IMG/VR virus record: IMGVR_UViG_3300044997_000826
Coordinates: 1-29,446 of that record
Source: a virus
Length of the DNA: 29,446 nucleotides
Reading direction: 5' to 3' (one strand)
Under the pieces are notes generated by a model. That model saw only the letters and a program-made list of their open reading frames with translations. It did not search any database and was not told the origin of the DNA. Both the position numbers and the translations under genes were made by a program. Below are positions 1,143 through 23,745 of the stretch, piece after piece (position 1 is the stretch's first letter; each line of letters opens with the position of its first letter).

Positions 1143-1495
1143 AAAATATACATGAATCTATCAGCAAGCTATTGACGACAAAATTAGAAAAATATAAAAA
1201 TGAAAAATTAAATTGGGGTACTTGTATTGCGATTTATCAGGACATATTTGAAACATTTGTAGGCGTATTTCAAGAATCTAGTATTGACATCAGCAACGAA
1301 GCTATGAATATGATATGTCAAATGTACTACGATGCCGTTTCAATCAACGGTAATCAAGAATTAGATCCTAACGTGTTCTCTCTAAGGGCTTCTGTAAAAA
1401 ATGTAGAAACGAAAGATTTGGCTTTATTAGCTAGTCTTTTTTCTAATACGCCTTTCGCTGCTCCGTTTATTCTTGAAATCAAGAAAAGGTCGTGA
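1139..1495 (+). CDS. Uncharacterised 118-residue protein
   Basis: I do not recognise this protein. It is soluble, with no signal peptide or membrane segment, and appears mostly helical, with a lysine-rich N-terminal helix (SKLLTTKLEKYKNEKLNWG) and aliphatic central helices. Its ATG overlaps the stop of the preceding glycosyltransferase (ATGA), and the next gene (GDP-mannose dehydratase) begins one base after its stop. Co-translation with glycan genes suggests a role tied to the same pathway or simple transcriptional packing. No catalytic motif is visible. The coding call rests on the uninterrupted frame, the coupled start and the tight spacing. Confidence 0.65.
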   Translation: MKNIHESISKLLTTKLEKYKNEKLNWGTCIAIYQDIFETFVGVFQESSIDISNEAMNMICQMYYDAVSINGNQELDPNVFSLRASVKNVETKDLALLASLFSNTPFAAPFILEIKKRS

Positions 1496-1496
1496 C

Positions 1497-4089: not shown

Positions 4090-4093
4090 TTTT

Positions 4094-4912: not shown

Positions 4913-5838
4913 AAATCTATTTTAATAGAAGACCCGTGGGAGGTCCGTGGGGCGGAGGATCAAAAATTCTTTCTGCGGTCATCGATGTATGTTTGGAAAA
5001 AGGTCATCAAGTTTTTTTTGAAGAGGAAATTTTTTCTCAAGAAGATATTGACGTCATCGTTTGCATGGACCCTAGGTCAACTCAAACTGTAACATTTAAT
5101 CATCTACTAGATTATAAAAACAAGCACCGATCTAAAATAGTACAACGAATTGGAGACCTAGGTACACACGGAAAACCAGAACTTTTAGAACTTCTAAAAG
5201 CGACTACGCCTCATGCTGATTTATTGATTTTTCCAAGTAATTGGGCAAAAAAATATTTAAATCCACCATCTGAAAAAAAGTGTTCTATAATTCTAAATGC
5301 AACATCTATAGATTTTTTTTCTCAAGATTTTTCTAGATATTACGATTATAACAAAAACGTTATAAGCGTAGTAACACATCACTGGTCTAATAACCACAAC
5401 AAAGGATTCGAAATCTACCAAGCTTTTGACGAGTATTGTTCTACTTCAAATAAGTTTAAATTTACATACATAGGTAGAACTCCTCCTGGCGTCAGATTTT
5501 CTAATCATTTACCTCCCATGGATACTATAGGTCTATTAGAAGAGCTTCCTAAACATCATGTTTATTTAACTGCTTCCAAAAATGAAGCCGGCGCCAACCA
5601 CGTTTTGGAAGCGATGGCCCTAAACCTACCAGTACTTTATCATAGTGAGGGTGGTAGTATAGTAGAATATTGTAAAAACTATGGTTTTGTGTACGAAAAT
5701 ACTGAAGAACTAATCTATATTTTAGAAAATTCTATAGATTTAATACGAGACGCTTTTGTTTCCTTAAATCAAAGAAAAACTAAATTTTCTAAAGAAATGG
5801 CCGAAGAATATGTAGCCTTATTCGAAAGCTTAATATGA
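4909..5838 (+). CDS. GT4-like glycosyltransferase
   Basis: This 309-residue GT-B-type protein opens with MKIYFNRRPVGGPWGGGSK, a glycine-rich loop after the first strand as in GT4 acceptor domains. Evidence for the donor domain is NVISVVTHHWSNNHNKGF (start of the C-terminal Rossmann fold) and LTASKNEAGANHVLEAMALNLP, which carries the E-x7-E-type donor-binding segment, followed by HSEGGSIVEYC. LIFPSNWAKKYL and SIILNATSIDFF are the inter-domain segments. It is translationally coupled on both sides by ATGA overlaps. Codon use is strongly AT-rich, like the genes around it. The acceptor and donor are unknown. Confidence 0.78.
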   Translation: MKIYFNRRPVGGPWGGGSKILSAVIDVCLEKGHQVFFEEEIFSQEDIDVIVCMDPRSTQTVTFNHLLDYKNKHRSKIVQRIGDLGTHGKPELLELLKATTPHADLLIFPSNWAKKYLNPPSEKKCSIILNATSIDFFSQDFSRYYDYNKNVISVVTHHWSNNHNKGFEIYQAFDEYCSTSNKFKFTYIGRTPPGVRFSNHLPPMDTIGLLEELPKHHVYLTASKNEAGANHVLEAMALNLPVLYHSEGGSIVEYCKNYGFVYENTEELIYILENSIDLIRDAFVSLNQRKTKFSKEMAEEYVALFESLI

Positions 5839-6542
5839 AACTCAATATTAGCATAGACGATGTTTCGCCTCATCCTCTGTCTTCGATTAAAGTTCTTGAT
5901 AGGTGTTTCGATTTAATTAAAGAATTTTCCGAAATCAAATTTTCTTTATTCGTACCAGCTTCGTATTGGAGAACTATTAAGTCTGGTACTACAACCAACG
6001 AAGCCCTAACACTTGACCTATATCCTGAATTTTGTAGTCATATAAAAAACTTACCACGAAAAAATTTCGAAATTTGTTATCACGGATTATTCCACGGAAT
6101 ACCGAATCTCTCTGATAATGATGAATTTAAAAATCTAGACTACGAACAAGCAATCGAAAAATTTACAAAAATGTTTCAAATTATTTCGAATGCAAATTTA
6201 ACAGAAATCTTTCAACCTGTTTTTAGACCTCCCGCGTGGAGAATGTCAGCATCAGCTATTCGCGCAGCTAAAGATCTAGGGATAAAAATTTTAGCATTGT
6301 CTTCTAAAGATTATGCTAAAAATACTTACGCCGGCGCCGAAAAAGATTTCAATAAAGTAGTTTATTATAACTGCAATCCACCCTTCGATAAGTTAGAATT
6401 TTTTTCTCCTTATACCGAAGTCGTATATCACGCATGCGAATGGGATTCGAACTATTTTAGTGAAGAAAAAACCGAAGAACTAAAGGTTTTTATAAATTCT
6501 CAAAACAATATAGAATTTTGTTTTATGGATAAGCTTCTGTAG
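5835..6542 (+). CDS. Polysaccharide-deacetylase-like protein (NodB/DUF2334-type)
   Basis: This 235-residue protein resembles metal-dependent carbohydrate deacetylases of the NodB/CE4 superfamily. It starts with SIDDVSPH, where D8-D9 is the expected catalytic/metal aspartate pair. It continues with CYHGLFHG, giving H83 and H87 in the metal-binding H-x3-H arrangement, and FRPPAWRMS, matching the RPP-x-W substrate-binding loop. Family members remove N- or O-acetyl groups from GlcNAc-type sugars or peptidoglycan. There is no signal peptide, so it probably acts in the cytoplasm on an intermediate. The start is an ATGA overlap with the preceding glycosyltransferase. It ends in TAG, one of few in this window, followed by the first sizeable gap. 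Alternative: a catalytically altered family member; the motif residues are present, however. Confidence 0.75.
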   Translation: MKLNISIDDVSPHPLSSIKVLDRCFDLIKEFSEIKFSLFVPASYWRTIKSGTTTNEALTLDLYPEFCSHIKNLPRKNFEICYHGLFHGIPNLSDNDEFKNLDYEQAIEKFTKMFQIISNANLTEIFQPVFRPPAWRMSASAIRAAKDLGIKILALSSKDYAKNTYAGAEKDFNKVVYYNCNPPFDKLEFFSPYTEVVYHACEWDSNYFSEEKTEELKVFINSQNNIEFCFMDKLL

Positions 6543-6643
6543 TCGAAGACAAGTCGATTTCAAATTAACGTTAATTCTGGAATGACTTATCGAACAAACT
6601 AAAAAAATTTGTACTTCATTAATTTGTTAAGATATTATGAAAA
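6543..6643 (+). promoter_or_regulatory. AT-rich intergenic gap with 14-bp perfect palindrome, possible promoter/operator
   Basis: At about 100 bases this is the longest gap in the glycan island, whose other genes mostly overlap. It contains a perfect palindrome AATTAACGTTAATT at 6563-6576, a repeated AGTCGA (6541-6546 and 6551-6556), a run of seven A at 6601-6607, and TATTATG at 6633-6639, just ahead of the next start. There is no GC-rich stem followed by T residues, so a rho-independent terminator is not supported. A promoter for the following genes with an operator-like site is plausible but unproven. Confidence 0.3.
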
Positions 6644-7510
6644 ATGATAAAATTACAAAATTTGTCTCTTGTAGAAAATGACATATTTTTCGATCATGAC
6701 GTTATTGGTTTATTGAAACTAATTAGAGACTGTAAAAGACCCAACGGGTTTGAAGTTGTAAAATTTCAAGATTTTTATTGTCTTTTCGATAAAAAGAATA
6801 ATTCGATTACCAATTTTTATCAATCGGCAGCGACGCCAGAATTTTATAGAAAATTTTTAAATATGGCGAATCATGCAAAAGCCGTCGGCGTAAAGTGCAA
6901 ATTTGAATTTTTTATTACTGAAGAATTTACTGATTTAGAGAAGACGAATTTATTTAACACAAAAGAAAAAAGCGCAATCGTAAATCTAGAAAAATATGAT
7001 ATAAAAAATATAAAGAAAGGTCATAGGCAAAATATACAGAAAGCGCAAAAGAATAAAGTAAACATAGAAATCTTTCACAATTCGACTGTAGATGAATCAC
7101 TGATAAAAGAATTCTATGATTCAGTTTTATTTTCTAGAAATTCTTTCGGTAAAGCTTTTCAACATACATATAAAACTTTTTTATTTAGAAAACTATTAAT
7201 ACAAAATGGAAAAGCAGCTCTTGTCGTATCTGAACACGAAAATAAAAAATCTTTTGTATTTTCACTGACTGGGAAAAATAACAGTTTTTATTATGATTCT
7301 GGCTATACTTCTGGAATTAATCCTTTTATAGCTCACTATGCGCAGCATAGCTTGATGTTGTATCTAAAGTCTTTGGGTGGAAAGTATTATAACTTAGGTA
7401 AAATCAACAACGTCGAAGCCCGTAATAACTCAAATATAAAAAATGACAAAGTAGATTATTACAAATCTGGATTTTGCGACGCCTTAACCGATATCTTTAT
7501 ACCACAATGA
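6644..7510 (+). CDS. FemAB/GNAT-like N-acyltransferase
   Basis: This 288-residue protein resembles the FemAB-like group of the GNAT superfamily (also called GNAT_6/CelD-type), which transfers an acyl or aminoacyl group to an amino sugar or peptidoglycan precursor. The diagnostic stretch is GHRQNIQKAQKNKVNIEI near residues 126-143, corresponding to the R-x-x-I-x-K-A signature after the first domain. A second half with SFVFSLTGKNNSFYYDSG, then HYAQHSLMLYLKSLGGKYY and LGKIN, corresponds to the acyl-CoA/tRNA-binding region. Length fits the family (300-350). The start ATG 6644 follows an AT-rich gap without a clear Shine-Dalgarno sequence; another ATG at 6637 is in a different frame. With the deacetylase just upstream it could deacetylate and re-acylate an amino sugar, an inference from adjacency. 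Confidence 0.6.
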   Translation: MIKLQNLSLVENDIFFDHDVIGLLKLIRDCKRPNGFEVVKFQDFYCLFDKKNNSITNFYQSAATPEFYRKFLNMANHAKAVGVKCKFEFFITEEFTDLEKTNLFNTKEKSAIVNLEKYDIKNIKKGHRQNIQKAQKNKVNIEIFHNSTVDESLIKEFYDSVLFSRNSFGKAFQHTYKTFLFRKLLIQNGKAALVVSEHENKKSFVFSLTGKNNSFYYDSGYTSGINPFIAHYAQHSLMLYLKSLGGKYYNLGKINNVEARNNSNIKNDKVDYYKSGFCDALTDIFIPQ

Positions 7511-8484
7511 AATTTGCAATTTCAGAAATGACAGCTCTAAAATACTTTCTACCTCTCGTCGTAGAAGGTAACAAAAGAGGTATACATTCAACGCTAATTC
7601 TATTTAGAAGCAACAAGTATAACTGTCCATTTTTAAAAGAACATCTGGAGCAACTTACATTATTTTCTAAAATTTATAATTTTACCTTGCGCGAATCGGG
7701 ACAAGACGACAAAATTAAAGACGTCGTTTTTTTTATAGAAGGCGTTCTAAGAGACAAACCAATTTGTAAAAGCAAATCTATATCACTGTGCTATTCAACC
7801 GATTTCAGGATGGGATATGAGAAATATATTAACGAAGTAGATTATGTAGTTTTTTCTAGTAAACATCTTTCAAATTACTACAATAAGCATAACGAAAAAA
7901 ATTTATACCTAGGGTCTCCAAAGTTTGACTGCCATCTAAACAACGACGATATAATAAATAAATATTATTTAGACTAGTCTAAAAAAAAAGCGACGATATT
8001 CTATCCGAGAACTAGAGATATTCACGCTTGTCCTTTAGAGAAAATTTCTACGTACTTAAAAGATGCAGGCTTCGAAATAATAATAAAATCCAGAATGAAA
8101 GATGTGATTCAAGAAAATCATCTTTCCCTCGCCAGCAAATGTTTATACGACGTTTCATGGTTCCCACATACTTCTTTAGAGTTGATAAAAGTAAGCGATC
8201 TAATCATTAATTTTAGTTCGACTGTAATAGAAGAAACGACAGTCTTAGAAAAACCAGTAATCAATTTTCACACTAAACCCTTCGCAAAATCCCTCGCATT
8301 TTTATTCGATTATTCTTTCGTAAAAAATCTAACCGTCGACTTTAGCAAATTTGAATTTCAAAATTCTATTGATGACTTATGCGTCGACAAAAATCTAGAA
8401 GATCAATTTGCCTCAGCAAAAAGATTATTGCTTGATACAAAAAATTCATCAAAAGATATTATCGATTTTGTCGTAAATATATGA
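7507..8484 (+). pseudogene. CDP-glycerol glycerophosphotransferase-like gene interrupted by in-frame amber codon
   Basis: One continuous reading frame of 326 codons is interrupted only by TAG at 7975-7977. The 156 residues before it (ending SPKFDCHLNNDD... KYYLD) and the 168 after it (starting SKKKATIFYPRTRD) together look like a GT-B-type glycerophosphotransferase/surface-carbohydrate protein. The join KYYLD-x-SKKKATIFYP matches the usual domain boundary 'YnLD-k-skk.ilyaP'. The downstream DLIINFSSTVIEETTVLEKP is the typical C-terminal signature. The first ATG after the amber is at 8095, 39 codons inside the conserved region, so the second half is not a plausible independent gene. ATG 7507 overlaps the previous stop (ATGA); an in-frame ATG at 7474 lies inside the upstream gene and is rejected. 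The 3' end overlaps the neuA-like start. Either a nonsense mutation (for example AAG to TAG), suppression/readthrough, or a sequence error. Confidence 0.7.
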
Positions 8485-9056
8485 AAATAACTGCAATAAT
8501 CCCAGCTCGTGCTGGATCTAAAAGACTAAAAAATAAAAACATCTATCCAATTTGGGATAAACCAATGATTCATTGGGCAATACGCGCATGTAAAGAATCT
8601 ATTTACAAAATAGACGTATGGGTCACAACTGATTCAGAGGAAATTGCAACTGTTGCTAGGGGTTGTGGAGCTAACGTAGTTTTTCGTGATAAATCAACAG
8701 CTAGCGATACTGCTTATAAACAGGCAGCAATAAGAGATGCTGCTAGAAAAATTGATGGTGTTAAAGGCGTTAGCGATGTTTACATTTCTTTACAACCAAA
8801 TTCACCAGAAGTAAAAAGCATCGACTTAGATAAGGCAATTGATTGTTTATTAAAAAATAACAAAGACGAAATAATAAGTTCAGATTCGAACCTTATGCAG
8901 AATGGTGCCTTTAGAATTTTTAAAGCAAAATATGTTTATCAACAAGATCTATCTACAAACTGTGGGTTTGTTGTATGTGATCTTTTTGATGTACACACCA
9001 AAGAAGATGTTGAACTTTTAGAGTCTCGTACGAAGGATAAAAATGAAAAAGCTTAG
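8481..9056 (+). CDS. neuA: CMP-nonulosonate (acylneuraminate) cytidylyltransferase, NeuA-like
   Basis: This enzyme would activate a sialic-acid-like nine-carbon sugar with CTP to give the CMP-sugar donor. The N-terminal IIPARAGSKRLKNKN (residues 6-20) is the CTP-binding signature of the cytidylyltransferase family that includes NeuA and KdsB. KPMIHWAIRAC and VWVTTDSEEIATVA match the following conserved helix and strand, and ISLQPNSPEVKSIDLDKAI matches the 'LLQPTSPlR...di..ai' sugar-binding segment, with N for T. At 191 residues it is shorter than typical (220-230). It is coupled by ATGA to the broken gene upstream and overlaps the next gene by 14 bases. CpG is sparse here compared with neighbours (see findings). 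Which nonulosonic acid (neuraminic, legionaminic, pseudaminic) cannot be decided; the NeuB-like gene 0.6 kb downstream supports the pathway. Confidence 0.85.
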   Translation: MKITAIIPARAGSKRLKNKNIYPIWDKPMIHWAIRACKESIYKIDVWVTTDSEEIATVARGCGANVVFRDKSTASDTAYKQAAIRDAARKIDGVKGVSDVYISLQPNSPEVKSIDLDKAIDCLLKNNKDEIISSDSNLMQNGAFRIFKAKYVYQQDLSTNCGFVVCDLFDVHTKEDVELLESRTKDKNEKA

Positions 9057-9648
9057 GTTTATAGATTGTGGAGCTAATATTGGACAATCAATTGAATGGG
9101 CATTAAAAGTTTTCAAAGATTATGAAGTTATCGTAAATTCATTCGAACCTTTACCTCTAAATTTCAATATCATAAAAGAAAAATTTTTGCAAGACGATAA
9201 AGTCATCGTTCAACAATTTGCGGTATCAACAAATTATGGAAGCTCAACTTTTTATTGTCAAAATACAGGTGCTAGAACGGGATCTACACTTGTGAAAGGT
9301 AAACTTTATCTAAACGAAAATGAATCTATTCAAGTAGAGACAATAGACCTTGCTGACTGGATAAAGAAAAACGTCTCTAAGGATGAATTGACGATTCTAA
9401 AAATTGATGTTAAAGGTGCAGAATACGAATTGCTTCCACACCTTTTGGAAAATAATATTCAAGATTTGATAGATTATTGGCTTATAGAATATCACTCAAG
9501 AAAAATACCAATATCTTCAGATGTTGCACAGCAAGTTGAACTAAATGTTATGGATAGTGTCAAATATGTATTTGACTGGTCAAGACCAGACATAGTTGAA
9601 GGATTGTTAACAAAAACAATTGAAATGAAGGATTGGCTAGATACATGA
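9043..9648 (+). CDS. FkbM family methyltransferase
   Basis: This 201-residue protein has the FkbM-type SAM methyltransferase pattern: RFIDCGANIGQS at residues 5-16 (SAM-binding motif I), NSFEPLPLNF near 32-41 (acidic strand end), the internal TGARTGSTLV segment, and LTILKIDVKGAEYELL near 112-127, the characteristic 'lKiDveGaE..vL' of the family. Family members O-methylate sugars and polyketides. The gene lies between the NeuA-like and NeuB-like genes and overlaps both (14 bases with the first, ATGA with the second), so methylation of the nonulosonate or its glycoside is a reasonable inference. Like neuA it is CpG-poor compared with the following gene. Confidence 0.87.
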   Translation: MKKLRFIDCGANIGQSIEWALKVFKDYEVIVNSFEPLPLNFNIIKEKFLQDDKVIVQQFAVSTNYGSSTFYCQNTGARTGSTLVKGKLYLNENESIQVETIDLADWIKKNVSKDELTILKIDVKGAEYELLPHLLENNIQDLIDYWLIEYHSRKIPISSDVAQQVELNVMDSVKYVFDWSRPDIVEGLLTKTIEMKDWLDT

Positions 9649-10334
9649 CATATATCATAAGCGAAATATGTGGACAGTGGGGCGGCTCTGTAAGAAAAGC
9701 AGAACAGATGATTCTTCAATCAAAGATGATGGGCGCCGACGCTGTCAAGGTGCAACTTTTTGACACATATAAAATGCCTGGACAAGATCGTCATCTTTGG
9801 GAATATCTGTCGATGAAGCGAGAAGACTTTCTTCGCCTCGCAGAGTTTAGCGAAAAACTAAACATAGACTTCTTTGCTTCAGCGTTCGACGAAGAAAGAT
9901 TTCAGTGGATTCAAGAAGTCAAGTTGAAATACAATAAGATAGCTAGCTCTTTGATCGAGCTTAAGCCCGAACTTTGCAAAGCGATGTTAGACTCTGGTAT
10001 GAAAACCTTTTTCTCTTTGGGAAAGTGGAACAAACCAGATCTACCTTTTCAACACGACAACGTTGAATATTTCCACTGCATACCAAAATACCCTCACACC
10101 CTTGAAGAAGCTCTTCAAACTCTTCCTAATACTTTTGATGGTAAGATATCAGGATATTCGGATCACGTCATAGGAATCGAAGCGACAAAGGAAGCTGCTC
10201 GCCGCGGTGTCAAGTACATCGAGAAACATTTCACGTTGAATAAAAACTCGCAGTCAAAGACTGAAGCAGCACACGCCTGTAGCATGGACATGGAAGACCT
10301 GCGAGCCCTAAGAATCTTTTGCGACTCACTATGA
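9645..10334 (+). CDS. neuB: Short NeuB-like N-acetylneuraminate/nonulosonate synthase, catalytic barrel only
   Basis: NeuB-family enzymes condense phosphoenolpyruvate with a six-carbon amino sugar to give a nine-carbon sugar acid. The sequence begins YIISEICGQWGGSVRKAEQM, matching the usual 'iAEIG.NH.G....A..mi', followed by GADAVKVQLFDTYK (family: aGADavKfQ). FFASAFDEERF, KIASSLIELKPEL (with the phosphate-binding 'KI.S.e...'), FHCIPKYPH (family 'C.s.YP'), GYSDHVIGIEA and YIEKHFTLNK follow in family order. At 229 residues it lacks the C-terminal SAF (antifreeze-like) domain of normal 330-350-residue NeuB. That domain contributes to the active site across the dimer, so activity would need another arrangement. 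ATG 9645 overlaps the fkbM stop (ATGA); a TTG at 9633 is also in frame but less likely. The absence of SAF could be a phage-lineage trait or a truncation. Confidence 0.85.
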   Translation: MTYIISEICGQWGGSVRKAEQMILQSKMMGADAVKVQLFDTYKMPGQDRHLWEYLSMKREDFLRLAEFSEKLNIDFFASAFDEERFQWIQEVKLKYNKIASSLIELKPELCKAMLDSGMKTFFSLGKWNKPDLPFQHDNVEYFHCIPKYPHTLEEALQTLPNTFDGKISGYSDHVIGIEATKEAARRGVKYIEKHFTLNKNSQSKTEAAHACSMDMEDLRALRIFCDSL

Positions 10335-11116
10335 TGGATTTTTCCATAATCGTCACCATAAAAAACAGAAAAGAACATTTTCTAAAAATTTTTTCTTCTC
10401 TAGTCACCCAACAACAACCATGGTCGTACGAGGTTAATTTCGTAGACTACGGTTCTCAGGATGGCTTCGAAGAATCTTTAAAAAAAGAAACGATAAGATA
10501 TCAAGATCTTTTTTCTGATTCTCTTAAAGCCATTAACAGAATATTCATAGAAGAAGACATCAAGTTTAATGGTGGTAAGGCTAAAAACATAGGCTCGCAT
10601 TTCTCTAAAGGAAACTTTATTTCTTTTTCAGACGCTGACGTATTTCTTGGTATGGATTATCATCGACACTGGCTTCAGATGTTGACTCGTAACGATACTC
10701 ACTTTTTTTCTTCTAGAGTCCAAGAAACTACCGAACATTCTGCGTGTAGAATCACGCCTCAGACGAATTACGGTAACATGATTGTCTCTCGATCAAACTT
10801 TGTAATCGTCGGAGGATTTGACGAAAACTTCCCGGCGTGGGGTGGAGAAGATGACGACATTGTTCACAGGTTAAAGCTTTACGGCTTGAGAGAGATTAAT
10901 CCTCATGATGTATATGAATCTCATCACACGAGCATTGTCCATGGCGACGAGCTCCGAACCAAGTTTAGAGAATCGACAGAAAAAAATTTGGAAATATCAA
11001 AACAAAAATTCAAAGCTATTTATAATAACTCAAGTTTCGTTAATCCCAATTTCTTGTCTTTCTACAACGACAACAAAAACTTAATTAAAGTCGAAAACGT
11101 ATATGAGCGTACCTGA
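10331..11116 (+). CDS. GT2-family glycosyltransferase (galactosyltransferase-like C-terminal motif)
   Basis: This 261-residue protein has a GT-A fold. FSIIVTIKNRKEHFLKIF opens the nucleotide-binding domain. SFSDADVFL supplies the D-x-D metal/donor motif near residues 95-102. VGGFDENFPAWGGEDDDIVHRL near residues 157-178 matches the C-terminal motif (WGGEDDD) of beta-galactosyl- and N-acetylgalactosaminyl-transferase-like enzymes, in which the acidic residues contribute the catalytic base. A 14-base overlap joins it to the next GT2 gene. I placed the start at ATG 10331 because it forms an ATGA overlap with the neuB stop; an adjacent ATG at 10334 is also possible, and a TTG at 10319 is less likely. 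A galactose- or hexosamine-type donor is a family-level guess. Confidence 0.85.
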   Translation: MMDFSIIVTIKNRKEHFLKIFSSLVTQQQPWSYEVNFVDYGSQDGFEESLKKETIRYQDLFSDSLKAINRIFIEEDIKFNGGKAKNIGSHFSKGNFISFSDADVFLGMDYHRHWLQMLTRNDTHFFSSRVQETTEHSACRITPQTNYGNMIVSRSNFVIVGGFDENFPAWGGEDDDIVHRLKLYGLREINPHDVYESHHTSIVHGDELRTKFRESTEKNLEISKQKFKAIYNNSSFVNPNFLSFYNDNKNLIKVENVYERT

Positions 11117-11723
11117 TGTTTCAATAATCGTCACGAACTATAATTATAGTTCTTATCTTCAACGCTGTTTGAGAAGCGTCTTGAATCAAAAAAACGTCAA
11201 TCACGAAGTTATCATTGTCGATGATTGTTCTACGGACGACTCGTTAGAGATGGCCAAGATATTCGAACCAGACGTAAAAGTAATTTCGACGTCTCAAAAT
11301 TCAGGAGTTGCCGGCGCAGCTAATCAAGGAATAAAAAACGCCAGAGGTCAATTTATCATTCGAGTCGACGCCGACGATTACGTGTCTTCTGACATGTGCT
11401 ATTTCATGAAGACCTACCTAGAATCTAATCACGACGCTTTTTGTGTGTCTTGTGACTACCATCTCGTCGACAATCATGAAAATATCATCGAAAGAAAATA
11501 TGCTGAAAAAGAGCCCGTGTCTTGCGGGATCATGTACAGAAAAAATCTTTTCTTACAGTCAGGTGGTTATAACGACGCCATGAGACATCGCGAAGAAGAA
11601 GAGCTGCGAAAAAGACTAGGAGAATATTATCGAATACATCACCTAAAAATTCCATTCTATCGCTATAGAATGCATGATAGTAACAAGACGAAGACCTCCG
11701 AATATAAGGAGTGCAAGGTGTGA
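11103..11723 (+). CDS. GT2-family glycosyltransferase
   Basis: A compact 206-residue GT-A glycosyltransferase. DVSIIVTNYNYSSYLQRCLRS is the canonical start, EVIIVDDCSTDDSLEMA gives the first aspartate pair, GAANQGIKNARGQFIIRVDADDY contains the D-x-D metal-binding motif, and CGIMYRKNLFLQSGGYND with HREEEELRKRL is the C-terminal acceptor-side motif including the catalytic acidic residues. The start at ATG 11103 gives a 14-base overlap with the preceding GT2 gene. Its stop is two bases from an ATG at 11725 that opens the broken dehydrogenase region. It is shorter than many GT2 proteins but contains all the core motifs. Donor and acceptor are unknown. Confidence 0.85.
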   Translation: MSVPDVSIIVTNYNYSSYLQRCLRSVLNQKNVNHEVIIVDDCSTDDSLEMAKIFEPDVKVISTSQNSGVAGAANQGIKNARGQFIIRVDADDYVSSDMCYFMKTYLESNHDAFCVSCDYHLVDNHENIIERKYAEKEPVSCGIMYRKNLFLQSGGYNDAMRHREEEELRKRLGEYYRIHHLKIPFYRYRMHDSNKTKTSEYKECKV

Positions 11724-11724
11724 A

Positions 11725-12538
11725 ATGAAAATTGAAATTTTAGGATACGGAGAAATTGGACAGGCGATTCATGAAAAATCTATTGCCATAATTGGACAAG
11801 CAAGGATTCGTCGGTGGTTCTTTAACGACAGTCTTTACTGAGCGTGGAGTAGACGTCTACGCATATGACAAAGCGGGTAAGTATGCAAAAGGCTCATTAC
11901 CCCGTCACGGAGATCCTGTCGCTGGATACCCTGGGTCCATCGCAGAATTAATCGGAGATAATGAGGAAGGTGGAACACCGGGTTTTTCTAAAGTTTATTT
12001 TGTGTGCCTTCCTACACCCATGTACGAGGACGGTTCTGCTGACCTATCGATTGTCGAGGGAGCTTTAGCGGAATTAGCTGCAACACCAGGCGAAAGAATC
12101 ACGGTCATTAAGTCTACCGTACCGCCAGGATCTGTCGAAGCGTGGAACAAAAAGTTTTCGGAAACAGGGCTTAGAATTATCTTCAATCCTGAGTTTTTGA
12201 CCGAAGCAAATGCCCTCAACGATATGCGAAACCAAAATAGGATCATTCTTGGTGGCCCTCGACCATGGATTAACAAGGTCAAGCAAGTGTTTGAAGCTGC
12301 TTTCCTAAACGTACCTATAGTCAAGACGTCAAGCTCAACCGCTGAGATGGTAAAATACGTGACCAATGTCCATAGCTGCTTTTGTAAGGATGTTAGCGCT
12401 TTAATTAGCATCGCAAAAACCTTGGGAATCGACCCCAAGGTCATGAATGGTGCCTGGCACAAAAACATGGAAGTCCGTCCCCAAAGAGATTGGGAAAAAT
12501 TAGTCAGACTCACAATATCTAAAAAGCGTGAAATTTGA
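11725..12538 (+). pseudogene. Degraded UDP-glucose 6-dehydrogenase-like gene with chimeric N-terminus and internal deletion
   Basis: The readable part is a UDP-glucose/GDP-mannose dehydrogenase: GFVGGSLTTVFTERG, YFVCLPTPMYEDGSADLS, VIKSTVPPGS, FNPEFLTEANALNDM, SSTAEMVKYVTN and CFCKDVSALISIAKTLG occur in family order. Defects are clear. The frame containing GFVGG has an upstream in-frame stop at 11789-11791, while the expected beginning (SIAIIGQ) sits in another frame at 11779-11799. A 4-base CAAG duplication at 11797-11804 and a missing base in an A run near 11773-11778 explain the shifts. The ATG at 11725 opens a 38-codon frame that begins with a second Rossmann motif (MKIEILGYGEIGQAI). After YVTNVH (about 12373) the sequence jumps to the catalytic-cysteine region, omitting about 50 usual residues. 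Translation from a TTG at 11792 would lack the NAD-binding strand. Likely inactive. Confidence 0.75.
11755..11809 (+). repeat. Imperfect direct repeat at the dehydrogenase pseudogene junction
   Basis: ATTGGACAGGCGATTC at 11755-11770 and ATTGGACAAGCAAGGATTC at 11791-11809 are related copies 36 bases apart, each encoding I-G-Q-A in the same frame. The second copy differs by a 3-base excess and substitutions. The two copies sit at equivalent Rossmann-fold positions of two dehydrogenase starts. They could be a recombination seam between two related genes or a local duplication. I infer this from inspection only. Confidence 0.5.
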
Positions 12539-16188: not shown

Positions 16189-16932
16189 ATGACGAAAAAA
16201 GGCAAAGAAGAAAAAGACAAAAAACAAGAAAGAGTAAAAAAAGTTGATCCATTAAAATTATATTTCAACTCAGACACTCAGCGTGCGATTGTAGAATTTC
16301 AGGCAGCAATGGATAGAAAAGATAGGGATCGTCTTTATGTCGAAGAGATATTGCCGGCTTTCGAAAAGCTAGTAGAAAATCTCATTAATATTCATAAATT
16401 TGCTGGGCTTTATGATTCGTATGACGATCTAAAAAATGATTGTGTCAATTTTTTATTTGAAACTATATGCAAATTTGACGCGTCTAGAGGAACGAACGCA
16501 TTTTCTTATTTTAACGTTGTCGCTAAAAATTGGCTAATTATAAAAACCAAGCAAAAATCTCAAAAGTCAAAAAAGAATGTTAGTCTCGATGACCCCAGCC
16601 TTCTTTCTGCTCACGAAAAAATTATAGTAGAAGAACACAACGCGTTGCCATCTCAGGACTTATTTTTGGAAGGCCTAAAATCTTCAGAGTCTATAGCAAC
16701 AGTTCTCTATGAAATAAGAGAAAAGGTAAGAACTGAAAATGAATTGATGTGCATTAATTCGATTATAACGATATTCGAAAACATAGAAGAGATAGACCTG
16801 TTAAACAAAAATGCTATATTGTTATACATGCGAGAATTGTCAGGATTGAGTCCGAAGCAATTAACGACGACGATGCAGTCTATAAAAAAACACTACAAAA
16901 AAATTAAAGTAGAGCAAAGAAACGAGGTCTAA
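16189..16932 (+). CDS. Sigma-70 region 2-like protein, candidate phage late sigma factor (gp55-like)
   Basis: This 247-residue protein resembles the T4 gp55 class of divergent sigma factors. After a lysine-rich N-terminus, residues about 83-120 (DLKNDCVNFLFETICKFDASRGTNAFSYFNVVAKNWLI) correspond to sigma region 2.1-2.3, where the usual pattern is 'DL.qeg...l..a...FD..rG..F.tYa...i'. The remaining C-terminal part is helical with no clear region 4. In T4, gp55 with the sliding clamp directs late transcription, so a late-promoter role for the baseplate genes that follow is likely if the assignment holds. Assignment is from motif similarity only; it could be a diverged structural relative. The stop overlaps the next gene's start by one base (TAATG). 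Confidence 0.6.
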   Translation: MTKKGKEEKDKKQERVKKVDPLKLYFNSDTQRAIVEFQAAMDRKDRDRLYVEEILPAFEKLVENLINIHKFAGLYDSYDDLKNDCVNFLFETICKFDASRGTNAFSYFNVVAKNWLIIKTKQKSQKSKKNVSLDDPSLLSAHEKIIVEEHNALPSQDLFLEGLKSSESIATVLYEIREKVRTENELMCINSIITIFENIEEIDLLNKNAILLYMRELSGLSPKQLTTTMQSIKKHYKKIKVEQRNEV

Positions 16933-17291: not shown

Positions 17292-18821
17292 ATGCCGATA
17301 GATCCTCATGATGTATTAACAAAACTTTCCGAAGGTAAATTATCAAAACTAGACGAAAGAATTAAGTCGTACATCGTAGAGCCGCTGCCTACGTTTATGC
17401 GAATGATCGTATTGGACGTCATATCAGATCCATCGATTATTGACGATAACAAGATAGATTATTGGAAAAATGTATTAAAAGTTTCTAATTCAAGATTTGC
17501 TAAAATTTTACCTAGAAATTCTATCGTCGCACAACCGGCCAGCGTAGGGAAAACTAGAATCACCCCCGTAATGTTCGTGTTTCCATTTTTTCCGTCTCAT
17601 CTAGCGTTACCTTGTAAACCAGGCGAAATGATCTGGACTATGTTCGAAGATCCGAACGCTAGAATAAAAGAAATAGCCTACTGGTTTTGTAGGATAGCAG
17701 AACCTCACACAATTGACGACGTTAATCATACTCACCACGCTGCGCAGTTAAATGACTCCAGCGACGACAACATAAAAAAAGCGATGGAAGAAGGTAAACA
17801 AATAACCACGTATGAGTTGAGAAATGGAAAAACGCAAACGACAAAAGATGGCGTAAAATTTACCGCTAAAGACTCTAATACTTTGGAGTCTAAAGACGTA
17901 GAGGTGTTTGAAAAATTAATAACTCAAACCGACGCAGCTGCCTTAATGCAATACGAGTCAGTTCCTCGTTTTAGAAAAAGACCTGGCGACGTTGCCATAG
18001 AAGGCAGTAATAACACTTTAATAGTTTTGGGAACAGACAGGGCTAACACACTTGCAGACTATGAATTTATCGCGTCGCATCCTTCTAGAGGCATAATTCC
18101 TGCTATAGTTCGTGATTTTAGAGGTGCCGCCGGCGCGATAGATCTTGTAGCGGGTCGTGGAATGACGCCCTTTACTGGTGGAAGTTTTACTATCACAAAA
18201 AGAATTAATGATGACCAGGAATTAAAAAAAGAAATTATAAAAGATCTCACGACAATATCTCCGACCGAAGGTGATCCCGACTTTGCGCAAGATAGAAGTA
18301 GAATTTTAATTTCTCAGCGTACCTCGCCCGATCAAAACTTCGGTTTAAAAGAGTATCTTTTACGACAAACGCCATTACTACCAGTTTCCGATTCGTCTGA
18401 TGGCGATGCAGCGATAGTTATTAAATCTGATAAAATAAGAATAGTCGCAAGGTCTGATATATCTTTTATAGTGACTAATTACGCCGAAAGCAAATCTAGC
18501 GACGGTTCTGACATTAACATAAAAAATAGTGAACTTGATTCTAGCAAGTGGGCTTCAATCACGATAAGAAGAAATGGCGATATCATTTTTTCTCCAAGCG
18601 ACAAAGGAGTAATTAAATTGGGCGGCGAGGATGCGTCACAAGCAATTTTATGTACCGCATACCTCGCGAACAATAAAGGAGGCATGGTTAATGCTTCGCC
18701 TATCGCTACTACAGGAGGAGGATTCATCGGCACCTACGGCGACAACATCGATTCAAAAGCTGCAGAATTAAAACAAACGCCAGATTTAGGTACGTTTTCT
18801 ACCAAGGTTTTAATTAAATAA
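17292..18821 (+). CDS. Baseplate hub/spike-like structural protein (OB-like N-terminus, spike-like C-terminus)
   Basis: This 509-residue virion protein has an N-terminal part ending in VFPFFPSHLALPCKPGEMIW, then IAYWFCRIAEPHTIDDVNHTHH, which resembles the OB-fold start of contractile-tail spike proteins (gp5/VgrG-like). A middle region contains PGDVAIEGSNNTLIVLGTDRAN. The C-terminus has short strand repeats (WASITIRRNGDIIFSPSDKG, VIKLGGEDAS) suited to a beta-helical spike. I see no lysozyme domain, which in T4 gp5 sits between the two; the next gene carries a hydrolase domain instead. Position ahead of the gp25/gp6-like genes supports a baseplate role. The name is by analogy, not by a decisive motif. 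Confidence 0.55.
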   Translation: MPIDPHDVLTKLSEGKLSKLDERIKSYIVEPLPTFMRMIVLDVISDPSIIDDNKIDYWKNVLKVSNSRFAKILPRNSIVAQPASVGKTRITPVMFVFPFFPSHLALPCKPGEMIWTMFEDPNARIKEIAYWFCRIAEPHTIDDVNHTHHAAQLNDSSDDNIKKAMEEGKQITTYELRNGKTQTTKDGVKFTAKDSNTLESKDVEVFEKLITQTDAAALMQYESVPRFRKRPGDVAIEGSNNTLIVLGTDRANTLADYEFIASHPSRGIIPAIVRDFRGAAGAIDLVAGRGMTPFTGGSFTITKRINDDQELKKEIIKDLTTISPTEGDPDFAQDRSRILISQRTSPDQNFGLKEYLLRQTPLLPVSDSSDGDAAIVIKSDKIRIVARSDISFIVTNYAESKSSDGSDINIKNSELDSSKWASITIRRNGDIIFSPSDKGVIKLGGEDASQAILCTAYLANNKGGMVNASPIATTGGGFIGTYGDNIDSKAAELKQTPDLGTFSTKVLIK

Positions 18822-18822
18822 C

Positions 18823-21345
18823 ATGCCAATAATGGATGATTTGGGATTCATAACTGATGGAAGAGTCAGCATGGATCTTTTTTATCGATACATTGTAGAC
18901 CTAAAAAGAAAATTAAGAACGGGGAACGGTATATTTCAATCGTCCGAACTTGACGATTTTAAAACTCCTGCCAACGGATATGAAGCAGCACCGCTAGAAA
19001 ACTATTTAATATTTCCTGATTTTCATAGAATATGGGCACTGCGTTACACTAGAATGTTAGTGCAAATTAATTTGCCGAGTCAATTTAGACTAGTCCCTCA
19101 AGGCGTAATGCTATTAGATCCTACTGCGCTAGCTAAAGCTATGGGCTCTAAACAAATCGTCGAAGTAAAATTTCCAGATATATTCGATGAAATACAAGGA
19201 ATACCTGCTCAGCCAGGTGGTCCTGCTCCACCGACCATAGCAGACGTCATGGCGGGACAATCTGATAAAACTATAAAGTACTTCGAAAAGTATATGTCGA
19301 CGCTTAATCCCGTGGACCCTGAAGTTATAAAAAATCTTACATCTATAGTTACCGCGCCCCCGGCAGCACCTAACAAAAAATTTCCGAATCCTCAGCTCGC
19401 TAGATATGGATATGACGATCAAAGAAATTTTGAAAAAAATTTTTATGAAAGTCAAATAAAAACTCACGAAGCGCTAATGGCTGAAGCGCACGAGCTTTTG
19501 CCCGCTGCGTTAAACGAACTAGCATCTGACAGAGGTTGTAATACGGTATTAGAAAAGATATACACGACTGCTAAAAGCTATCAGTCAAAATCTTTACCAA
19601 CTAGCCAATTTGAAATTGCTGCGCAAGAAATATTGTTGCAACATCAAGTAAGACTGCAGTTCGCTATTTTGTTTGGAATGAACTTAGGTTACGGCGCAAT
19701 TCTTGACGCGCTTGTAAAAAAACCTGAACGTGATGGTGGCATCGGATTAGTTGATCCTTCTCAAACTGCGCAATCAATCATCGACGCGTATAGACAAACC
19801 ATAAAAACTAACAACAGCGATTCTACCAGTAATTCTCGAGGAGAAACGTCCAACGACCAAACAACGCAAGGATCTTTAAACAATAATACTACACAATCGT
19901 CGTCGGCTACAGCACCTTCTACTGAACAGCAACAACAATCCAGCGGTATTAATAGCGCAACGACCGAAGATACGTCGTATCCGCAAAAAGATCCAGGAAT
20001 TGACGCGGGCGAAAATGCCTCGACTGCCGCCAATGGTGGAACTGAAACTTCTTCAACCGCTACTCAAAACGCCGAAATTAAGCAAGTAAATGACGAGCAC
20101 ACGAACCAACAAGATCCTCAAAGTCCTCAGGGCTCTTCAGGACAACCTAGCTCAGTAGGTCAAGACGAAGTCGAGCGCGACGAGGATGGAAACCCTATTC
20201 CTTATCCAACGCCTCGTGTCGTAGAAGAAGATACGACGCCCGCCGCCCTGCCTTCACACGTAACAGGCATGACCTCATGGACTAATTTAGTCATAGCCGA
20301 GAAAAACGAAACCGCAGCAGCCACAGACGAAGCTGACGAAGATGCCCAGACACAAGAAGGCATGAATGCGAGCATAAGATATTCAAAAGTTCGGCAACGC
20401 GCAAGGTTCGTGATAGAAGGTTCTTTGGGTCCGAAGCCCCGCGAGAGCGATTACCAAAACTTGGTAAGCAATCCTAATAATCCAACGTTTAAGGGATTTA
20501 AAGGTGGCCGCGTCGACCCTCAATGGTTCCCGGGTCCAGCAGGAACGCAGCCTCCTTCGCCAGGAGCAGGATATAACGATGAAAGTGCTATTCGAAGTAA
20601 TATTAATGCAGCTAATTCTAGCAATAGCGTGCAAGCTATTGCAACGTCGTGCGGAAATTACGCTGGATGGTTGTTGCGCAACGTTATTTTTGACGTCGCC
20701 CATCCGTTTTCAAAAGTCAATTTAAGGTTTCCCGTCAACGCAGAGAACGACGCGAGAGCGAAAAGTGCGGGCTTTCCATTTCTTGGTAAAGCTGTAACGC
20801 AAGATGCAGACTACCTCGTCGGCGCGCCAGGATTCGCTAATTTAGGTTATTTCGCCGCAGCGTGCGGAGCTTGGAGAAATAGCGACGTGAGTAAAGGTGG
20901 CGTTACTAACGAGCAGTGTCAAAAAATGAGTCCCAAGTACGGAGACGTATTTTTGATTAGAGACAATCAAATTATTCGCCACACCGGTGTTTTTGTCGAT
21001 TGGTTACCCGCTGGTACAGGGACGGGTTTTTGTATAACAGCAGACGCCGGTGTTTCAAATGTTAACATACTTTATAGAGCATGGGCTAATGGCAAAACAG
21101 GAGATCAAAAAAATGATCTAAACGCTGCGGCGCAACAGATTATACCTAAAGCCGCAGAAGGAATGTGTTATTTAAAAAGGAATTTAACTTTTGAAATTGG
21201 TAAAGGGTGGAGCATACAAGGACAAGTCGATCAAGGCGATGAAGGTAATATGAGAATAATAATGGGATGGATTGATTTAGATTTATTAATCCCGGCTTTG
21301 GAAAAATACTTTGGCAATCAATATCCAAAGCCCAGTACCTACTGA
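18823..21345 (+). CDS. Virion protein with disordered linker and C-terminal CHAP/NlpC-like cysteine hydrolase domain
   Basis: This 840-residue protein has three parts. Residues 1-325 are a folded region with no family I know. Residues about 327-475 are a low-complexity linker rich in S, T, Q, N and later E/D/P (for example TTQSSSATAPSTEQQQQSSG), which should be disordered. Residues about 600-770 form a papain-like cysteine hydrolase: C610 in TSCGNYAGWLLR is the nucleophile candidate and H720 in IIRHTGVFVDW, preceded by GDVFLIRDN, is the histidine, as in CHAP/NlpC-P60 amidases and peptidases. The probable role is local peptidoglycan cutting during infection, supplied by the tail. The upstream spike-like protein lacks a lysozyme domain, so this protein may fill that function. 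It starts one base after the previous stop. Confidence 0.72.
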   Translation: MPIMDDLGFITDGRVSMDLFYRYIVDLKRKLRTGNGIFQSSELDDFKTPANGYEAAPLENYLIFPDFHRIWALRYTRMLVQINLPSQFRLVPQGVMLLDPTALAKAMGSKQIVEVKFPDIFDEIQGIPAQPGGPAPPTIADVMAGQSDKTIKYFEKYMSTLNPVDPEVIKNLTSIVTAPPAAPNKKFPNPQLARYGYDDQRNFEKNFYESQIKTHEALMAEAHELLPAALNELASDRGCNTVLEKIYTTAKSYQSKSLPTSQFEIAAQEILLQHQVRLQFAILFGMNLGYGAILDALVKKPERDGGIGLVDPSQTAQSIIDAYRQTIKTNNSDSTSNSRGETSNDQTTQGSLNNNTTQSSSATAPSTEQQQQSSGINSATTEDTSYPQKDPGIDAGENASTAANGGTETSSTATQNAEIKQVNDEHTNQQDPQSPQGSSGQPSSVGQDEVERDEDGNPIPYPTPRVVEEDTTPAALPSHVTGMTSWTNLVIAEKNETAAATDEADEDAQTQEGMNASIRYSKVRQRARFVIEGSLGPKPRESDYQNLVSNPNNPTFKGFKGGRVDPQWFPGPAGTQPPSPGAGYNDESAIRSNINAANSSNSVQAIATSCGNYAGWLLRNVIFDVAHPFSKVNLRFPVNAENDARAKSAGFPFLGKAVTQDADYLVGAPGFANLGYFAAACGAWRNSDVSKGGVTNEQCQKMSPKYGDVFLIRDNQIIRHTGVFVDWLPAGTGTGFCITADAGVSNVNILYRAWANGKTGDQKNDLNAAAQQIIPKAAEGMCYLKRNLTFEIGKGWSIQGQVDQGDEGNMRIIMGWIDLDLLIPALEKYFGNQYPKPSTY

Positions 21346-21407
21346 TTTGTCAAAAATTATTATAATGTTGTCCCAATATAGGCGATTGACAATACATAAA
21401 ATTGTAT
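21346..21407 (+). promoter_or_regulatory. AT-rich gap before baseplate gp25-like gene, candidate promoter
   Basis: This is the only clear break inside the structural gene block. It contains TATTATAATG with a TATAAT hexamer at 21361-21366, and TTGACA at 21386-21391 too close to the start codon to be a useful -35 box. A TTGTCA at 21347-21352 lies only eight bases from TATAAT. A phage late-type promoter recognised through the -10 region alone is possible. There is no convincing hairpin terminator and no Shine-Dalgarno sequence before ATG 21408. Confidence 0.25.
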
Positions 21408-21881
21408 ATGGCTACTACGATAAATTTTAAGAGCGTCGGCAGTACTGGACAACAATATGTTGCTGACATTCAATATCCTACGTTAACGCCTGTCGGTATA
21501 AAAACTCCTCTTAGACTAGGCAGTCGACATGGAATATTAGATATGTACACGAACGTCGCCGATACTGTTCACGACAATCTAAGAAACTTAATTCTAACTA
21601 ATTGGGGCGAAAGATTGGGTATATATTTTTTTGGAGCCAATTTAAGACCATTAACGACTGATTACTCAACGCAGGAAAATTTTGACTCTGAGGCGGTTAT
21701 TAGGATAAAGACCGCTGTTACTAGCTGGATGCCGTTCGTCAGTTTGATCGATTATGTGTCAGACATAGAAGATTTTAAAACGGGTTCTTCGGTCGCGCTA
21801 ATAAAAATAAAGATAACATATTCGATACCCACGTTGGGCGTTAACGACAAACAACTAAACGTAAATTTATTCGTATTATAA
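21408..21881 (+). CDS. Baseplate wedge protein, gp25-like (GPW/gp25 family)
   Basis: The 157-residue product matches the gp25/GpW lysozyme-like fold found in all contractile tails, where it helps form the baseplate inner ring with gp6 and gp53. The diagnostic stretch is VHDNLRNLILTNWGERLG, equivalent to the family's 'I..sI..lL.T..GeR.m...fG', followed by FFGANLRPL. The C-terminus ends in alternating strands (ALIKIKITYSIP). T4 gp25 is 132 residues, so this is slightly longer. I chose ATG 21408; a TTG at 21402 would add two residues only. The gp6-like gene follows after 16 bases, as in T4-like modules. Confidence 0.85.
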   Translation: MATTINFKSVGSTGQQYVADIQYPTLTPVGIKTPLRLGSRHGILDMYTNVADTVHDNLRNLILTNWGERLGIYFFGANLRPLTTDYSTQENFDSEAVIRIKTAVTSWMPFVSLIDYVSDIEDFKTGSSVALIKIKITYSIPTLGVNDKQLNVNLFVL

Positions 21882-21897: not shown

Positions 21898-23745
21898 ATG
21901 GCGTCAAAAACGATTAAAGAAATCAGACAAAGAAAATACCTGGCCAGAGATTTTGATTCCTTAAGATCCACTCTTTTAGACTACGCCAGACAGTATTATC
22001 CAGATAGAATAGAAGATTTTTCAGAAGCATCGGTGGGCGGACTCTTCCTGGATATGGCTGCCTATGTAGGTGACAATTTATCTTTTTATCTTGATCATTT
22101 ATATGGAGAGCTAAATCCGGAAACGGCGGTAGAAAATGCGTCTGTCGAGCGAGCGCTAAGAAATGCTGGCGTACCAATCACCGGTGCCGCTCCTGCGACC
22201 GTCGACGTTACGGTTTATATTGAAGTACCTGTTGCTTCTCTCGGCGACGACGAGCCCGATGTTACTCTTTTACCGACGATCAAAGAAGGTACGGTTTTTA
22301 TTAGCGACAGCGGAATACCTTTTACGCTGATAGAAGACATACAGTTTTCTATAGATCCAGCAGAAGATGGAATCTATATTCTAAATCAAGAAGCCAAAAA
22401 AAGAATCGGTAGACAGAGACCCGACGGTACTATAGTAAGCTATTTTCTTTCTTTAACGGGACTTTGTATTTCCGGTAGAGAAACTAGAGAAATTACAACT
22501 TTTGATTCGTTCGTTCCATTCAGGAGATTCTCTCTAAGTCAAACCAACGTAAGTGAAATAGTTAGAGTTTATGATGACTTTGGAAACACATACTACGAAG
22601 TCGGTTCTTTAACGCATGACGTAGTCTATAGAAACGTTTTAAATACTTCAGAAGACAGCGACTTAGTAAAAGATGGTTTGAGAATCATTCCTGCGCCATA
22701 CAGGTTTCTTAAATTAACTGATTTAGCGACGCGTAAAACTACTTTAATTTTTGGTGGCGGATCTGCCAGCACGATAGAAGACGACGTCATACCAGACCCG
22801 TCCGAATTCGCTATACGCATGCCTTATTCAAAATACATTGGTAGAACAACCCTAAATCCAGAAAAATTATTGACTACTAACACGCTAGGCGTAGCTGCAG
22901 AGAACGCTAATGTAACGGTAGTATATCGCTATGGTGGAGGATTAAGTCATAATATTGCGCCTAATTCCTTAACGTCAGTTTCCACATTAAACATAGTTTT
23001 TCCTTTAAATCCGCCGAACAGTCAGGCAGTTAAAGTGAGAAATAGCATAGAAATTTCTAACACAGTTGCTGCGACAGGTGGAGAAGACGCACTGTCTGCC
23101 AGGGAATTAGCGACGCTAATACCTTCAATAAAAAACTCTCAAGAAAGAATAGTGACCAAAGAAGACTTGCTTGCTAGAGTCTATACGATGCCCTCAAATC
23201 TAGGCAGGGTTTTTAGAGCAGCCATAGCATCGAATCCCAACAATCCGCTAGCCACCCAGCTTTTTATCATATCGAGAGACAACAATCAGAGATTGATCAC
23301 GTCTCCTGATACGCTAAAGATAAATCTAAGAAAATATTTAAATTCTTATAGAATGATATCGGACGCGATAGACATCTTAGACGCCAGAATCATCAATTTG
23401 CAACTAAAGTTTACGGTAATTATAGACCCTACATTAAATAGAACATCAGTTTTATCTACGATTTTAACCAAGCTTCAAAATAAATTTGAAGCTAGAAAAA
23501 TGTACATAGATCAACCAATAATCATATCGGAAGTAATCAACTTAATCTATACCGTGCAAGGCGTTATTGCAGTAGATTCAATTAACTTTAACAATATTTC
23601 GGGTGTCGTAAATAACCTAGTGTATAGTGACGTTACTTACGACGTAAAAAATAATACAAAACGTCAAATGATACTTCCTCCGACAGGTGGAATATTTGAA
23701 ATACGTTATCCTGCAGACGATATTATCGCGAAGGTGGTGTCATAA
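21898..23745 (+). CDS. Baseplate wedge protein gp6-like (baseplate J family)
   Basis: The 615-residue product fits T4 gp6 (660 residues), which forms the inner baseplate ring that transmits the sheath-contraction signal. The N-terminal RQRKYLARDFDSLRSTLLDYARQYYP, then FSEASVGGLFLDMAAYVGDNLSFYLDH, is the conserved gp6/J-like opening, with helices that pair with gp25. ENASVERALRNAGVPITGAAPATVDVTV continues the J-family pattern. The C-terminal third (QERIVTKEDLLARVYTMPSNLGRVFRAA and later IDILDARIINLQLKFTVII) corresponds to the ring-forming domain. It begins 16 bases after the gp25-like gene with AGGAT upstream, and its stop overlaps the next start by one base (TAATG). Confidence 0.85.
   Translation: MASKTIKEIRQRKYLARDFDSLRSTLLDYARQYYPDRIEDFSEASVGGLFLDMAAYVGDNLSFYLDHLYGELNPETAVENASVERALRNAGVPITGAAPATVDVTVYIEVPVASLGDDEPDVTLLPTIKEGTVFISDSGIPFTLIEDIQFSIDPAEDGIYILNQEAKKRIGRQRPDGTIVSYFLSLTGLCISGRETREITTFDSFVPFRRFSLSQTNVSEIVRVYDDFGNTYYEVGSLTHDVVYRNVLNTSEDSDLVKDGLRIIPAPYRFLKLTDLATRKTTLIFGGGSASTIEDDVIPDPSEFAIRMPYSKYIGRTTLNPEKLLTTNTLGVAAENANVTVVYRYGGGLSHNIAPNSLTSVSTLNIVFPLNPPNSQAVKVRNSIEISNTVAATGGEDALSARELATLIPSIKNSQERIVTKEDLLARVYTMPSNLGRVFRAAIASNPNNPLATQLFIISRDNNQRLITSPDTLKINLRKYLNSYRMISDAIDILDARIINLQLKFTVIIDPTLNRTSVLSTILTKLQNKFEARKMYIDQPIIISEVINLIYTVQGVIAVDSINFNNISGVVNNLVYSDVTYDVKNNTKRQMILPPTGGIFEIRYPADDIIAKVVS

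Follow-up and report, generated by a model that had tools for sequence, protein, structure and literature searches.

A lysozyme-free spike-like protein and a separate, probable baseplate wall hydrolase encoded side by side in a T4-like virus

Introduction

To our knowledge, the wall enzymes described so far on phage baseplates are fixed parts of the spike or the hub. Which protein, then, would open the cell wall for a virus whose spike carries no lysozyme? The question is raised by two adjacent genes in the uncultivated virus record IMGVR_UViG_3300044997_000826, which we analysed over its whole length of 29,446 bases (the window) and which comes from a T4-like virus of bacteria. The genes encode a spike-like protein of 509 residues and a protein of 840 residues. 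From its predicted fold, its invariant residues and its place among the baseplate genes we conclude that the 840-residue protein is very probably a baseplate-associated wall hydrolase, separate from the spike, which would take the part that the lysozyme domain plays in T4 gp5. Two unannotated proteins of the window are thereby assigned, one as a spike and the other as a probable wall hydrolase of the baseplate.

The 840-residue protein

The gene of this protein begins one base after the stop codon of the spike gene, at the position between the spike and gp25-like genes which we call the slot. The parts of the protein are listed below as they appear in a full-length AlphaFold2 (AF2) model built from 30 rows, with the predicted local distance difference test (pLDDT) as a guide to order and disorder.

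18823..21345, + strand: 840-residue slot protein, comprising anchor, disordered linker and CHAP-like domain (open reading frame; full-length AF2 model)
18823..19818, + strand: N-terminal anchor domain, residues 1-332, predicted mostly helical (pLDDT block means 61-93; family profile)
19819..20376, + strand: predicted disordered linker, residues 333-518, 186 residues (pLDDT under 50; composition)
20377..21342, + strand: predicted CHAP-like papain-fold cysteine hydrolase domain, residues 519-840 (AF2; VIA)
20650..20652, + strand: codon of C610, presumed nucleophile (invariant in 23/23 rows; first residue of helix 610-622; codon checked)
20944..20946, + strand: codon of D708 in a GD motif (invariant in 23/23; codon checked)
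20980..20982, + strand: codon of H720, presumed catalytic histidine (invariant in 23/23; in strand 717-728; codon checked)
21043..21045, + strand: codon of D741, candidate third catalytic residue (D or E in 23/23; strand 735-745; codon checked)

The 23-row alignment of the cysteine domain includes some near-identical pairs, and within residues 585-840 every other cysteine or histidine is kept in at most 3 of the 23 relatives. Two loci outside this alignment, L013 and L035 (the latter by its C-terminal part only), have the same residues by eye. In the AF2 model the cysteine stands at the start of a helix and the histidine and the acidic residue on the following strands, as in CHAP and NlpC/P60-like hydrolases of the papain fold. 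The best match in the VIA fold comparison was the CHAP domain of LysK (4csh; Z 8.1, root-mean-square deviation 3.7, 148 aligned residues, residues 521-824), followed by that of LysGH15 (4olk; Z 8.0) and then by Ly7917, Clostridium autolysins, MepS and PlyPy; Tse1 and the CHAP domain of the phi812 hub protein (9eum) stood lower, with Z 4.9 each. Nearly all of the 35 best rows are papain-like cysteine amidases or peptidases, with phage-lysin CHAP domains leading.

The Pfam CHAP family PF05257 gave no match in the window protein, and its relative L022 gave a weak one over the histidine motif (E 0.012, 16.5 bits against a cut-off of 26). Because the Pfam cut-off was not reached, we call the domain CHAP-like and not a member of PF05257. 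A tblastn search of 50,697 phage records with the 840-residue protein, with the spike and with the L022 relatives of both found no match, and neither did a fold search of BFVD; sequence searches of the PDB with queries A1, A2, A5 and A9 returned chance rows only or none. The predicted fold and the invariant residues are compatible with a CHAP-like cysteine hydrolase. A first-pass annotation of this DNA had placed the two genes within 17292-21345, had read a cysteine hydrolase domain with C610 and H720 in the second, and had proposed structure prediction as a check for a papain-like fold. The genes are where it put them, and a fold of this kind was predicted, with C610 at the helix start and H720 in a strand.

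The same annotation had described a linker of about 150 residues rich in S, T, Q and N. A long disordered stretch does separate the two domains in the model, but its length is 186 residues and S, T, Q and N make up 45% of it, the remainder being mainly A, E, D, G and P. When the stretch from anchor to domain was measured by alignment columns, it came to 208 residues in the window and to 281-289 in L002, L003, L018 and L019, whereas the other 12 full-length CHAP-type slot proteins have only 4-19. A conserved order of residues in the linker was ruled out by comparison with shuffled sequences: aligned with those of L002, L018 and L019, the window linker did not exceed the top score among 100 shuffles. 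What the linkers of the clade share appears to be their length class and their composition alone. The flexible arm is real as predicted disorder, yet it is local to one clade. A long linker as a general device is thus ruled out, and since it occurs only in the clade of the window, the swing-out arm that the annotation had suggested cannot be a general mechanism. In L013 (1454-4147) an in-frame stop lies within the linker of the slot gene, possibly a sequencing error or a sign of a broken gene.

The spike

17292..18821, + strand: spike-like protein of 509 residues, lysozyme-free (open reading frame; 43-row alignment; AF2; VIA rows)
17385..17699, + strand: predicted OB-fold region of the spike, about residues 32-136 (range aligned by most VIA rows)

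Could a lysozyme be hidden in the spike? Searches with the spike gave no match in PHROG and no meaningful match in Pfam, with nothing lysozyme-like in either. The AF2 model, made from 43 rows, is beta-rich (mean pLDDT 80.6). Segment lengths are near-constant across the 43 aligned spikes, not one of which has a lysozyme-sized insert, and this rules out a hidden lysozyme, in agreement with the first-pass reading of the spike. A longer, divergent C-terminus is found in four spikes (L088, L094, L095 and L102), belonging to some of the viruses without a slot gene.

Most VIA rows of the spike model align its residues 32-136 or thereabouts with OB folds. Several of the 50 rows, at Z 6-7, are spikes of contractile systems (E217, P1, Bas63, the Anabaena contractile injection system, Orf41 of Pseudomonas phage SN, PVC, Mu, PhiTE and A-1(L)), intermixed with unrelated OB-fold proteins at equal Z. 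The predicted OB-fold region is consistent with the identity of the protein as a spike, although the fold alone is no proof of it. Foldseek, run against the PDB with this model, returned nothing that reached E 0.001. In L067 (4585-6080) the spike is split into two open reading frames, which may reflect a sequencing error or a broken gene.

The slot in related viruses

We surveyed the slot in the best 80 of 368 relatives of the gp6-like protein in IMG/VR, which together with loci collected earlier made 85 loci (numbered with the prefix L), and grouped these at 95% gp6 identity into 55 groups; classes were assigned from the printed proteins. A slot protein of this kind is present in 38 of the 55 groups, and the slot gene is absent in 15. 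CHAP-like modules (19 groups) have the support of a profile, the GH24 module (1 group) that of Pfam and lytic transglycosylases (2 groups) that of PDB and PHROG, while the HESG type (7), LAS-metallopeptidase-like (2) and GH73-like (2) classes, 11 groups in all, are readings of motifs by eye. Five groups have the anchor only, one has an unrelated protein of 210 residues and one is unclear. The GH24 module, found in L092, matches Pfam PF00959 (E 2.2e-16) and is thus a T4-type lysozyme; the lytic transglycosylase module matches PDB 9udh (E 1.7e-22) and PHROG 196, 'baseplate hub' (E 9.8e-27). Profiles of the LAS, GH73-like and HESG classes had no match in the PDB.

Do these proteins share more than their position? 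The anchor profile was trained on CHAP-type, GH73-like, GH24 and anchor-only proteins, and it also finds slot proteins that were absent from the training set: the lytic transglycosylases L037 (6e-9) and L050 (1e-23), the LAS proteins L039 (5e-17) and L099 (2e-27), L049 (1e-8) and, at 6e-4 to 1e-5, the HESG proteins L045, L046, L047 and L054. Apart from these, most rows found by the anchor profile belong to its training set, as do most of those found by the cysteine profile. At E 0.001 or better the anchor was detected in 31 of the 38 slot groups; it missed this threshold in L028, L035, L042, the L044 group, L051, the L055 group (L057 at 4e-2) and L069, nearly all of which are cut at the 5' end. 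In the loci that have the slot gene and show both sides, it sits between the spike and gp25-gp6 genes. The same anchor and the same gene position are therefore found in relatives together with non-homologous catalytic modules.

Mapped on a gp6 tree with 54 groups, nine slot states require no fewer than 18 changes, where the minimum would be 8 and the mean after shuffling is 30.7; in this count of changes gain and loss are not told apart. The states are therefore clustered, yet they have been swapped repeatedly. The lytic transglycosylase, LAS and GH73-like states account for two changes each, and the CHAP-like state for at least five on well-supported branches.

The anchor-only groups are L021, L059, L064, L069 (5'-cut and assigned by eye) and L096; five groups that have the anchor and no catalytic module hint that the anchor itself is structural. 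The loci without a slot gene, from 15 groups, are L067, L070, L072, L075-L079, L082-L086, L088-L090, L093-L095, L098 and L102, and in the five of them listed with long flanks the neighbouring genes follow in the same order. Wall enzymes of these viruses were searched for with two Pfam families in selected records. The idea that they keep the anchor elsewhere was rejected, as none of 9 records matched, all of them being possibly incomplete and the search having missed the anchor of L096. Two loci differ in other ways: in L004 (2457-3089) the slot is filled by the 210-residue protein, which is free of the anchor and by eye perhaps thioredoxin-like, and in L092 (4128-4913) a GIY-YIG/NUMOD3 homing endonuclease gene stands between the spike and slot genes.

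Gene order and nearest relatives

The right half of the window encodes, in order, a gp55-like sigma factor, a protein of 118 residues, the spike, the 840-residue protein and a gp25-like protein, followed by a gp6-like baseplate wedge protein and proteins of 502 and 1149 residues.

16189..16932, + strand: gp55-like late sigma factor, a neighbour (PHROG 234, E 2.5e-5)
21402..21881, + strand: gp25-like baseplate protein (family profile matches to immuto and Mel-JY01 genes)
21898..23745, + strand: gp6-like baseplate wedge protein (PHROG 219, E 7.3e-11; tblastn match to the immuto 'baseplate wedge protein')

A predicted fold of wall-cutting type is encoded among virion structural genes, with the spike on one side and gp25 and gp6 on the other, as is expected of a virion-associated lysin. 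The gp25-like family profile matches the 'baseplate assembly protein' of Flavobacterium phage immuto (E 4e-9) and a gene of Microcystis phage Mel-JY01 annotated as 'tail lysozyme' (E 6e-15). These two phages and an uncultured 484-kb phage are the nearest named relatives by gp6, distant ones at 30-32% identity. A search for the host, in which spike and gp6 alignments were compared with species genomes, gave no match and hence no hint.

The left half of the window is dense in glycosyltransferases, methyltransferases and nucleotide-sugar enzymes. Positions 1-12535 are packed with glycosyltransferase, methyltransferase, epimerase and UDP-glucose dehydrogenase-like genes, a run which suggests that the virus makes or modifies a surface glycan. 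Upstream of glycosyltransferases in related loci, L018:593-1453, L020:809-1663 and L019:365-1054 have by eye, from their printed N-termini only, the look of sialic-acid (NeuB-type) synthases.

Discussion

How might the two proteins work together? The anchor (residues 1-332) would attach the 840-residue protein to the tail, probably close to spike or hub. Once contraction begins, the module would open the wall round the tube, with the piercing left to the lysozyme-free spike; the CHAP-like domain would presumably cleave peptide bonds of peptidoglycan through C610 and H720, aided by D741, and the 186-residue disordered stretch could let the enzyme reach the wall away from the spike axis. We infer the presence of the protein in the virion, and also any swing-out or release. 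Two of the alternative slot modules, the GH24 lysozyme and the lytic transglycosylase, are identified by sequence as peptidoglycan-cutting.

The first-pass annotation had gone further and suggested that wall degradation moved to another polypeptide with a different catalytic class. Wall degradation does seem to reside on a separate protein, but the implied direction, away from a gp5-like ancestor, is unsupported. Nor does one new class consistently take the place of the old: among homologous slot proteins there are some with a T4-type lysozyme (L092), some with a lytic transglycosylase and some with no enzyme at all.

Several results weigh against the 840-residue protein being a wall hydrolase of the baseplate. 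The VIA score of its cysteine domain, with Z about 8, is only moderate; Foldseek against the PDB gave its model no row at E 0.001 or better, and PHROG, Pfam and PDB sequence searches found no sequence-level match to any hydrolase family. In Mel-JY01 the anchor profile search detected no anchor in the slot protein, and the spike resembles that of the window by a short motif only (hhalign probability 2%). Finally, with 15 of 55 groups lacking the slot gene and five having the anchor only, the enzyme must be dispensable or placed elsewhere in many relatives.

Could the 840-residue protein act outside the virion, as an endolysin made late or as an accessory lysis enzyme? Domains of the CHAP and GH24 types are what one typically finds in endolysins, and the closest fold rows of the cysteine domain are the CHAP domains of endolysins. 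Still, the enzyme is fused to a conserved domain of some 300 residues and encoded within the baseplate gene run, a single base past the spike stop, and a role in lysis leaves unexplained the five groups in which the anchor has no enzyme; we consider this role unlikely. A role of the cysteine domain in processing, as a protease or amidase that serves virion assembly or host takeover and not wall degradation, is very improbable. Papain-like folds act on many substrates, and enzymes unrelated to the wall are among the VIA rows, IdeS and trypanothione synthetase for example, but homologues at the same position bear a GH24 lysozyme or a lytic transglycosylase, and the target common to these is peptidoglycan.

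The slot protein might also be an ordinary hub-hydrolase of contractile tails, that is, a gp27-like hub with lytic domains such as diffocin CD1368 or gp15 of phage A-1(L). Both systems have lysozyme-free spikes and carry hydrolases, peptidase domains included, on the adjoining hub. However, a gp27-like hub is a beta barrel, which residues 1-332, predicted to be mostly helical, rule out for the anchor; a hub should moreover be essential, yet the gene is absent in 15 of 55 groups. We therefore think it quite unlikely that the protein is such a hub.

If the 840-residue protein is instead a wall hydrolase docked to the baseplate, what is its position for? We lean towards a dedicated cartridge slot, in which one conserved docking domain, apart from the spike and the hub, takes interchangeable enzymes of at least three unrelated classes (CHAP-like, GH24 and lytic transglycosylase, and probably also metallopeptidase and glucosaminidase-like). 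The module would have been replaced many times while its baseplate neighbours stayed constant, and the long arm in the clade of the window would work off the spike axis.

A single syntenic position with a shared docking domain thus holds CHAP-like modules, a T4-type lysozyme, lytic transglycosylases, apparently other classes, or nothing. With this natural variety one can ask how the type of enzyme goes with the wall of the host, and whether contractile tails require a wall enzyme at all. The anchor, for its part, is a candidate for a natural module by which enzymes could be docked to baseplates.

Comparison with known systems

A wall enzyme separate from the spike is already in print for A-1(L), diffocin and phi812. 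In the open-licence literature we found no report of catalytic modules exchanged on a single conserved anchor at this position, and the main text of the far-T4 paper (PMC4360716) does not mention gp5, lysozyme, baseplate or hydrolase. A C. difficile phage in which no wall enzyme was found has been described (PMC11948020), which makes the 15 groups without a slot gene less odd.

The spike, with its predicted OB-fold region, may resemble T4 gp5 in fold, and the two systems have the same presumed job at the same stage of the life cycle; in T4 (PMC5380687) the lysozyme is inserted in the spike itself, unlike here. The CHAP domains of LysK and LysGH15 (4csh, 4olk) are the best fold matches, but they belong to endolysins and are only about 10% identical over the aligned part. 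In Staphylococcus phage phi812, which has a contractile tail, a baseplate protein, the hub protein (PDB 9eum), bears a CHAP domain, a location which in our case is predicted; VIA Z is only 4.9 between its CHAP cleaver domain and the 840-residue model, in a comparison that covers the CHAP domain.

The cultured phage Mel-JY01, a distant relative by gp6, likewise has a spike-like protein free of lysozyme and, beside it, a separate protein in which a glycosidase follows a proline-rich stretch. This glycosidase (WWT39505.1, annotated as 'putative chitinase') is encoded after the spike-like gene and two genes before the gp25-like one, and it matches PHROG 181, endolysin, at E 9.9e-33; the module of the window protein, in contrast, is a cysteine domain.

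Diffocin CD1368 resembles our protein in being a hydrolase apart from the spike and flexibly joined. It is a gp27-like hub (PMC10996793) fused to lytic transglycosylase and endopeptidase domains through a 23-residue loop, and release on triggering has been proposed for it; the linker in the window, in contrast, has 186 residues. Anabaena phage A-1(L) has the division of labour that we propose here, a plain, lysozyme-free OB-fold spike with the wall-cutting domains on a neighbouring baseplate protein, gp15. This hub (PMC10966104) has lysozyme, endoglucanase and peptidase domains, of which the peptidase and the endoglucanase were shown to be active. Whereas in gp15 these domains are parts of a trimeric barrel hub, the slot protein has a predicted helical anchor, its gene is dispensable in relatives, and it carries one module at a time.

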